From: Candidatus Nomurabacteria bacterium
GTDB taxonomy: Bacteria; Patescibacteriota; Minisyncoccia; Phycocordibacterales; CAIZLB01
Direction of reading: 5' to 3'
Assembly: GCA_943356525.1 (NCBI GenBank)
Contig: CALRFG010000003.1
Coordinates: 45,709-87,748, forward strand
Length of the DNA: 42,040 bases
The translations under genes were made by a program, and so were the position numbers. The notes beneath the pieces were generated by a model. That model was not told the origin of the DNA and did not search any database. It was given only the letters and a program-made list of their open reading frames with translations. Positions 7,366-41,875 of this stretch are shown here, one piece after another (position 1 is the stretch's first letter; each line of letters starts with the position of its first letter).

Positions 7366-8556
7366 TTATTCTTCGATAACCTCCTCAATCACCTCTATAA
7401 CCTCATCACGTTGACCATCCCTGAGCAAAGGATTATCTGTCACTTTGTTAAGCTTTTTCTTTAATACGCTATTTCTTGTCATGGCTTGCTCTATCGTATT
7501 CCCTGCTTCCACTATCTTCTTATGTGTCTTCTCAAGTATAGTTCCAAAGTTATTGAACTCTTTTTTCACTACTCCCAATATTTCCCAAACTTCTGAAGAT
7601 CTTTTTTGTATAGATAATGTTTTAAACCCCATCTGCAAACTGTTTAATATAGCCTGCACGGTTGTTGGACCTGTTATTATCACATTATATTCACGTCGCA
7701 CTGATTCAAATAGACCTGGTATACGCAACACTTCAGCATACAAACTCTCAACAGGTAAAAACAAAAGTCCGAAGTCTGTTGTATATGGAGCATCTATGTA
7801 TTTATTCTTAATATCTTTTGCCTCAGCTTTGATTCGAGTTTCTAGATTTTTTGAAAATACAACAAGGTCTTCATTACTTTCTCTTGCCTCCATCAAACGC
7901 TGATAATCCTCAAGTGGAAACTTTGCATCTATAGGTAGCCAGATATGAGCTATGTTGTCACTATTTCCTGGAAGTTTTATAGCGTACTCAACATTATCAG
8001 ACGACCCTTTTTTAGTTTTAACATTTTTCTCATATTGATCAGGTGTAAATATTTCTTCTATAAGATTACCGAGTTGGACCTCACCCCATGTACCACGAGT
8101 TTTTACATTTGATAAAATCTTCTTAAGATCTCCTACTCCAGCTGCTACTGTCTGCATTTCTCCAAGCCCTTTATGTACTTGATCAAGTCTGTCAGATACC
8201 ATTTTGAAAGATTCTCCAAAACGTCGCTCTAGAGTTGCGTGTAATTTTTCGTCCACTGTCTCTCGCATCTTATCCAACTTTTCGGAGTTATCTTTTTGTA
8301 AAATGTTCAAACGACCCTCAACTACATGAGTGATACTAGAAAAGTTTGCATTCAATGTTTTATCCAACTCCTCACGTATCTCCTTTTGCCCAGTATTATT
8401 TTCAAGACGTGAGCGCATCATTTCATCTTTCAACTGAGCCTCAAGGCGTTCTATACCAGACAAATCAACCTTAACTTCATCTTTCTTTTTAAAAACAACA
8501 ACTATCAATAAGCTTATTATTAAAATACTTTGAATTATTAATATTATTGTTACCAT
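7366..8556 (-). CDS. rmuC: DNA recombination protein RmuC
   Basis: N-terminal TM, coiled coil, core GTWGEVQLGNLIEEIFTPDQY, LPIDAKFPLEDYQRL, FLPVESLYAEVLR, GPTTVQAILNSLQMGF. Confidence 0.95.
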   Translation of the reverse strand: MVTIILIIQSILIISLLIVVVFKKKDEVKVDLSGIERLEAQLKDEMMRSRLENNTGQKEIREELDKTLNANFSSITHVVEGRLNILQKDNSEKLDKMRETVDEKLHATLERRFGESFKMVSDRLDQVHKGLGEMQTVAAGVGDLKKILSNVKTRGTWGEVQLGNLIEEIFTPDQYEKNVKTKKGSSDNVEYAIKLPGNSDNIAHIWLPIDAKFPLEDYQRLMEARESNEDLVVFSKNLETRIKAEAKDIKNKYIDAPYTTDFGLLFLPVESLYAEVLRIPGLFESVRREYNVIITGPTTVQAILNSLQMGFKTLSIQKRSSEVWEILGVVKKEFNNFGTILEKTHKKIVEAGNTIEQAMTRNSVLKKKLNKVTDNPLLRDGQRDEVIEVIEEVIEE

Positions 8557-41219: not shown

Positions 41220-41295
41220 GCGTTCGTAGCTCAGTCGGTAGAGCACCTGCCTTTTAAGCAGAGGGTCGTAGGTTCGATTCCTACCGGACGCACCA
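41220..41295 (+). tRNA. tRNA-Lys (anticodon UUU), CCA encoded
   Basis: GCGTTCG/CGGACGC acceptor, D-arm AGCTCAGTCGGTAGAGC, anticodon loop with TTT between CTGCC and GCAG, T-arm GTAGGTTCGATTCCTAC, A-CCA. Confidence 0.97.
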
Positions 41296-41298
41296 ACA

Positions 41299-41325
41299 TA
41301 AAAAGATGCATTAAGCATTTTTTTT
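41299..41325 (+). terminator. Terminator following tRNA-Lys
   Basis: AAAAAGATGC-ATTAA-GCATTTTTTTT. Confidence 0.65.
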
Positions 41326-41329
41326 GTTT

Positions 41330-41463
41330 GTGTCCGAAGGAGCGAATAGTTTCGCTCCTGGGTTGGAATCGAAAAGCTTTACCTTATTTTCGAAGAACTT
41401 TATTCAGAGAAAATGGTAAAGGTATACTGAAGTCGTAGACTTCGATTCCTACCGGACGCACCA
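41330..41463 (+). other. tRNA-like palindromic element ending in a duplicated tRNA-Lys 3' end
   Basis: GTGTCCG (41330-41336) can pair with CGGACGC (41453-41459) followed by ACCA; 23-nt exact copy TTCGATTCCTACCGGACGCACCA at 41441-41463; several internal perfect stems. Confidence 0.75.
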
Positions 41464-41508
41464 CAGGAGTACTTTTATTTTGATAAATCAAAATATGTCG
41501 CACATGAG

Positions 41509-41566: not shown

Positions 41567-41875
41567 CTACCTCACAAACTCCTCAAATATATAGTTTGAA
41601 AAATTAACTAAAAATCTCGTAGGAATATTTATAAAATCCAAAGGTCCTATAGCTCTAAAATTTTCAAATAGTTTTGGAATATATGTCGTACCTGATTGAC
41701 TAATATCATTTTCAAACATAACTAAATTAGGAGGTTGTTTAAAAATAAGCGCATTAATTTTATATTTAAAAAATTTATCTATTAAGATATTTATTTCTGA
41801 CTCATTAGCTTTTATTGCAGAAGTTATAAAAAATAATATTATTATAGATAATAAGAATAATTTACTTTTTTTCAT
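41567..41875 (-). CDS. Small secreted/membrane protein, unknown
   Basis: 102 aa with signal peptide MKKSKLFLLSIIILFFITSAIKA. Confidence 0.5.
   Translation of the reverse strand: MKKSKLFLLSIIILFFITSAIKANESEINILIDKFFKYKINALIFKQPPNLVMFENDISQSGTTYIPKLFENFRAIGPLDFINIPTRFLVNFSNYIFEEFVR

Follow-up and report, generated by a model that had tools for sequence, protein, structure and literature searches.

A structured repeat family behind tRNA genes in one order of Patescibacteria, with arms that match the adjacent tRNA

The repeat unit behind a tRNA-Lys gene

Near the end of a 42,040-nucleotide stretch from a Candidatus Nomurabacteria bacterium (contig CALRFG010000003.1, positions 45,709 to 87,748; herein referred to as the window, from the 626-kb genome G000), a tRNA-Lys(TTT) gene on the forward strand (41220-41295; ARAGORN, 73.4 bits against the Rfam tRNA model) is followed by a repeat unit (41300-41463) that ends in a second copy of the tRNA's own 3' end. 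The 23-mer TTCGATTCCTACCGGACGCACCA has two exact occurrences, at the end of the tRNA gene (41273-41295) and at the end of the unit (41441-41463), and the duplicated stretch of the tRNA-Lys tail runs from R57 to C74, beginning at 41276. An original prediction made from the letters alone had pointed to this duplication and to a series of internal stems, all of which are present where it placed them, and had suggested that the unit could be a tRNA-derived repeat, a CCA-tailed tRNA mimic or a scar left at an attachment (att) site.

All parts of the unit lie on the forward strand: the tRNA is followed by a terminator-like hairpin, a left arm with a 22-nt hairpin inside it, a core hairpin, a conserved GTRTACTG linker, a GTA-loop hairpin and a right arm. 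The terminator-like hairpin (41300-41324, from the fold of 41273-41360) has a stem that runs on into pairing between the tRNA acceptor and the left arm; it is part of the inserted unit, and its counterpart also lies within the insertion at a tRNA-Leu(TAG) site described below. By sequence and by own-tRNA pairing statistics, the first part of the left arm, GTGTCCG (41330-41336), complements the 3' strand of the tRNA-Lys acceptor; by the same statistics, the second part, GTTGGAATCGAA (41362-41373), complements its T-stem and T-loop. Between them, at the place of the D and anticodon arms, stands hairpin H1 (41338-41359; 9-bp stem, 4-nt loop), which is supported by covariation and is hypervariable in sequence across copies, with its pairing kept. 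The core hairpin P1/P2 (41377-41421; CTTTACC...GGTAAAG, with ATTTTC/GAAAAT inside) shows double changes in all pairs under the covariance model described below, and is followed by the linker GTATACTG (41422-41429; GTRTACTG in the family), unpaired in the consensus of two alignments, and by the hairpin GAAGTC-GTA-GACTTC (41429-41443), whose triloop is conserved and whose stem covaries. The right arm (41444-41463) repeats the tRNA-Lys tail in direct orientation, starting at T-loop base 57 and running to the 3' end.

As RNA, the 136 nt from 41325 to 41460 have a folding energy of -54.0 kcal/mol (z -6.6; none of 200 shuffles as good) in a structure that contains the acceptor-like stem, H1, the core hairpin and the GTA hairpin, and an alternative hairpin between the tRNA tail and the left arm reaches z -8.8. 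The unit contains no integrase or cargo, for which some 150 bp leave no room. Two details of the original prediction need correction: the additional GTCGTAG that it listed as duplicated is indeed present but belongs to the GTA-loop hairpin, the stem of which varies freely among copies, and the exact match through CCA is a local one, as described below. Its account of the palindromes also missed that in the left arm the adjacent tRNA tail is present as its reverse complement, split by H1 at the boundary of T-stem and acceptor, so that this arm varies from copy to copy with the tRNA.

A family tied to tRNA 3' ends in one order

A BLASTN comparison of the unit with its own genome, a check that the original prediction had proposed, finds further sites, five of which follow tRNA-Leu(TAG), Arg(TCT), Val(TAC) or Arg(GCG) or stand alone, and copies also follow other tRNAs in related genomes (G- and L-numbers herein denote the genomes and stretches compared). 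R1, a covariance model built on 22 sequences (143 positions, 41 pairs), recovers the window copy (41322-41464, 139.7 bits) among 10 copies in G000, which stand behind Lys, Leu, Arg, Val, Ser, Phe and tmRNA genes. The family is present in 155 of the 247 genomes and 102 of the 149 genera sampled within the order, compared with 11 of 287 genomes in an even sample of the phylum, most of these from the same order. A scan of 84,980 species genomes with an exact pattern returned 30 stretches, and those with informative titles are all from Patescibacteria (Kaiser-, Zambryski-, Nomura-, Taylorbacteria and others). No family match was found in viral contigs, phages or plasmids, nor did Rfam 15 give any match over the element above its gathering score (marginal overlaps near the 5' end score no more than 19.6 bits, with the cut-off at 50); the open-licence literature, a coverage outside which most subscription papers and preprints fall, held nothing relevant. 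This is hence an apparently undescribed family of non-coding structured repeats, about 145-190 bp long, of one order of Patescibacteria (Paceibacteria/Parcubacteria).

Position was mapped for 150 copies. In 110 of them the element begins fewer than 150 nt downstream of an annotated tRNA or tmRNA gene that has the same orientation, and a further 15 are close tandem copies, in which the tail in the right arm serves as the next target. Nearly every tRNA species is represented as a host among the relatives. Those copies in the window genome that lie far from a tRNA, where examined, have been displaced by other insertions: one with tRNA-Ser(gct) arms (C5:16190) lies 16 kb downstream of that tRNA, across an island, and one with tmRNA arms (C1:10414) lies 1.7 kb behind the tmRNA, at which a 1.6-kb insertion has occurred.

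Elements at the far sides of these two insertions, together with genes that separate some elements elsewhere (L141, L030, L010, L129), are what would be expected if the repeat were the distal attachment site of tRNA-integrating islands, or part of an integron-like cassette array in which the tRNA tail is the primary site and short copies are empty cassettes. We consider this improbable, since the tRNA and the element mostly adjoin without an intervening gene, and the 16-kb island brings a serine recombinase of its own and separate 38-bp direct repeats, so that a displaced element is the more likely explanation. Among tandem copies, most gaps measure 8-50 nt and few are ORF-sized. Most carriers, moreover, have no integrase beyond a single Xer-like protein (the one tyrosine integrase in most carriers and non-carriers alike), and no integron integrase was found in carriers. 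At the tRNA-Glu of G001, considered as a possible cassette site, the NUDIX neighbour is lineage-specific.

The island itself (L202; G000:C5, 116-16433; 16.3 kb at tRNA-Ser(gct), bounded by the 38-bp direct repeat) encodes a large serine recombinase, an Eco57I-type methylase with an SNF2/PLD helicase, DNA methylases and a reverse transcriptase (RT), and looks like a mobile defence island. Four contig ends of G000 (C1:1, C1:174515, C6:2 and C6:68496) coincide with tRNA 3' ends within 1 nt, as if the population varied in sequence behind these tRNAs. A further hairpin-like repeat, AATAAGGAACGYAGNGACTATATT, lies near the tRNA-Ser elements of G000 (L006, about 1627-1700; L136, upstream of the element at 7542-7680) and also occurs in G001 (L026), and one family match away from any tRNA (L125, 946-1125; G027:C10) is flanked by the long inverted repeat GTGAATTACGAAACTCTCTTTTTGACAC.

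Paired structure and fitted arms

The covariance check of the stems, likewise proposed in the original prediction, was borne out at every pair. Across 149 distinct sequences, fitted to R1 and including related copies that are not independent, 93.7% of cells are paired, all 41 pairs have changed on both sides, and the covariation score is 0.642 (0.157 when shuffled, at most 0.093 when slid); an unfitted alignment of the 22 sequences shows double changes in 32 of 41 pairs. Because of this order-wide covariation and the other copies in the window genome, chance is excluded as the origin of the palindrome. The reading as a simple att scar, left by an integrative element since lost, fares no better: a duplicated tail by itself is what integration at a tRNA usually leaves behind, but the interior is conserved and structured at more than 100 tRNA loci, and comparison with orthologous empty sites reveals a compact insertion rather than a remnant. 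Neither outcome that the original prediction had named as refuting, a lack of copies elsewhere or a plain attL/attR remnant, came about. Chance or scar together hence retain next to no weight as explanations.

Wobble cells in H1 and P2 are far more often G-T (81) than A-C (15), from which we conclude that it is probably the tRNA-sense strand that is structured, as RNA or single-stranded DNA. We dropped a scarcity of G-U pairs as proof of DNA structure, as G-U is likewise infrequent in the tRNA stems of these genomes (3.4-4.4%). The wobble asymmetry, the tRNA-like ends and the sense orientation would also suit a retroposon resembling a short interspersed nuclear element (SINE), in which the element's RNA, bearing the 3' end of a mature tRNA, is reverse transcribed beside tRNA genes; however, CCA lies outside the duplicated end (it is present in 8 of 57 copies), and RT is absent from the complete carriers G027, G172, G288 and G304 and from G035 (96% complete), which makes a retroposon very improbable.

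Both arms track the adjacent tRNA rather than the family, such that no fixed terminal inverted repeats are common to the copies. In the 82 copies with a locatable H1, the stretch before H1 pairs with 5.96 of the 7 nt of its own tRNA's acceptor 3' strand (shuffled 4.44, sd 0.10; maximum of 1000 shuffles 4.79), and the stretch after H1 pairs with 8.13 of 9 nt of its own T-loop and T-stem (shuffled 6.61, sd 0.09). In G027, for instance, where the tRNA-Glu gene has the end TTCGATTCCCGGTAGGGTCAAAAAT, the left arm has the sequence ATTTTTGACCCTA-H1-CCGGGAATCGAA. The right arm matches its own tRNA's tail better than that of every other tRNA in 59% of copies. In the 57 copies with a near-exact right arm, the duplicated tail (about 18 nt, from T-loop base 57) usually ends at base 73/74, with CCA behind only 6 of the tRNA genes and 8 of the element copies. 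The exact match through CCA in the original prediction therefore holds in the window but is a local feature, and since CCA is not general, a CCA-tailed mimic recognised by tRNA-processing enzymes is unlikely as proposed; the tRNA-derived repeat with an acceptor-like stem, by contrast, agrees with the copies behind other tRNAs and with arms that covary with the tRNA.

H1 does not follow this rule. It shares 4.24 letters with its own tRNA and 4.42 with other tRNAs, and H1s behind the same tRNA are no more alike than H1s within the same genome, so we rejected the idea that H1 is a copy of part of the tRNA.

Evidence for the proposed movement, and its rivals

Comparison of congeners places the insertion between the tRNA 3' end and the native terminator. 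At tRNA-Leu(TAG), G002 has the tail followed by its native terminator, whereas G000 has the tail, the element, a second tail and then the same terminator; tRNA-Leu(CAA) and tRNA-Met provide similar pairs of empty and occupied sites. Core sequences, furthermore, are related within genomes rather than by tRNA: in G027 the cores behind Trp, Pro, Tyr and tmRNA genes are 97-100% identical (one pair 93%), and in G001 those behind Arg and Glu are identical, with arms and H1 that differ in both cases. The nearest core belongs to a different tRNA of the same genome in 53 of 112 copies (9.7 expected), and in only 4 of 112 does it lie in another genome behind the same tRNA species, which, as far as sequence kinship can tell, is the behaviour of a mobile core with refitted arms.

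Taking as observed the family, its position and structure, the arm-tRNA covariation, the tail duplication, the empty and occupied sites and the near-identical cores behind different tRNAs, we favour with moderate confidence a non-autonomous structured mobile element that targets tRNA and tmRNA 3' ends and whose arms are refitted at each new tRNA. Such an element would insert exactly at the 3' end, ahead of the native terminator, and would leave the second tail copy at its right end. Its sense strand is predicted to fold as a tRNA-like rod of acceptor and T-stem, in which H1 would replace the D and anticodon arms and the conserved core the T-loop; the machinery may recognise this folded strand, as RNA or single-stranded DNA, with movement presumably driven in trans by an enzyme. 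Both arms would be rewritten from the tail of the new target, either in the course of insertion or shortly afterwards, perhaps by target-strand copying or by template-switch correction of the quasi-palindrome. More tentatively, and as a possibility rather than an expectation, the element may be self-refitting, its two arms base-pairing to the two strands of the tail and being rewritten at each insertion, so that one core could spread genome-wide over tRNA genes.

The main rival is a host-beneficial tRNA-linked element with a cis role in trailer processing, termination or the blocking of tail integration, its cores being homogenised by gene conversion. Order-wide presence, the 41 copies in G035, whose genome has 40 tRNA matches, compensatory changes at probable orthologous loci and the terminator-like hairpin that every element carries all speak for such a role. 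Copy number, however, is very uneven among congeners (5-8 copies in the congeners of G004 but none confident in G004 itself, where the best match, at 21 bits, is sub-threshold), many orthologous tRNAs lack the element, its place behind a terminator-like hairpin predicts weak co-transcription with the tRNA, and precise gene conversion of 75 nt that spares arms and H1 is itself unlikely. On balance we judge a host role unlikely; host function nevertheless remains the main rival because H1 and the GTA stem change fast with their pairing kept, even between probable orthologues.

Several points weigh against a mobile element. Nearly all genomes compared are metagenome-assembled. No transposition event was observed, and absent copies might also reflect precise deletion between the two tails. 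Simple copying does not account for the variation of H1 and the GTA stem, which extends to copies whose cores are nearly identical. Probable orthologous copies (tRNA-Val in G000 and G001, with the same terminator hairpin and the same truncated right arm; tRNA-Lys in G000 and G002 likewise probable) keep their pairing through double changes, as read by eye, which suggests constraint in place or template-switch repair of quasi-palindromes. No mobilising enzyme was found: none of Y1_Tnp, Phage_integrase, RVT_1, IS110 and TnpB tracks the carriers, and no parent transposon with the same ends was found among these five families. Indeed, Y1 genes (TnpA/RAYT) are absent from the carriers G000, G003, G008 and G172, the IS110 DEDD transposase occurs in 0 of 28 genomes, and the TnpB domain PF07282 gave no match above cut-off in 28 genomes (IscB was not searched for). 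Comparison of G000 with its element-free congener G004 left 199 unmatched G000 ORFs, with no obvious candidate among them.

No known kind of element tested here has target-matched inverted arms. Miniature inverted-repeat transposable elements (MITEs) are likewise short, non-coding and multi-copy, with inverted arms and a direct duplication at insertion, here the tail 57-73/74 on both sides with an empty congener site; however, their terminal inverted repeats are fixed and match a parent transposase, whereas the present arms match the target tRNA and vary by site. REP/BIME-RAYT systems and the hairpin ends of IS200/IS605 share single-strand hairpins, strict pairing and variable stems but are not placed by tRNA tails. 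Integron attC sites combine conserved structure with variable sequence, palindromic sites and occasional tandem arrays; here there is no integron integrase, cassettes appear mostly to be lacking, the arms are the tRNA tail and the junctions are laid out differently. Genomic islands and tycheposons also target the tRNA 3' end and leave direct repeats of the tail, but the present element is about 150 bp long, lacks an integrase, and has an inverted second tail copy inside and a conserved folded core. The t-elements and tRNA-like structures of plant mitochondria mimic the acceptor and T-stem without a full cloverleaf and could attract RNase P/Z; the mimic described here differs in copying the adjacent tRNA's own tail and forming a repeat family. 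Double-hairpin elements of fungal mitochondria are ultra-short mobile hairpins without a known enzyme, and are not known to have tRNA-matched arms.

If mobility is correct, the order harbours a mobile element without coding capacity whose recognition arms are kept matched to the local tRNA, as those of fixed-end transposons are not, pointing to insertion or repair guided by nucleic acid in very small genomes; it would also offer a handle on the tRNA-tail hot spots of Patescibacteria, with R1 usable to seek the activity. If it is a host element instead, a new tRNA-linked structure stands behind many tRNA genes of these bacteria.

Variants and neighbouring features

Outside the order, a distant family variant (L070, L080, L088 and L089, in G090 and G150) has the linker GGTGGCCAGAAA and a longer second hairpin, and a subtype without the acceptor complement has a short AAAAAATCCGGAGGATTTTT hairpin in place of H1 (L009, 902-1035; L028; L136, 944-1080; L157). 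Directly behind the right arm in the window lies a second short hairpin repeat, CACAGGAGTACTTTTATTTTGATAAATCAAAATATGTCGCAC (41462-41503), near copies of which follow tRNA tails in G001 and G002 (L008, L022), with one copy inverted within an element core in L025. A 102-aa ORF on the reverse strand (41567-41875), directly behind the element, has a signal-like N-terminus and no Pfam match.
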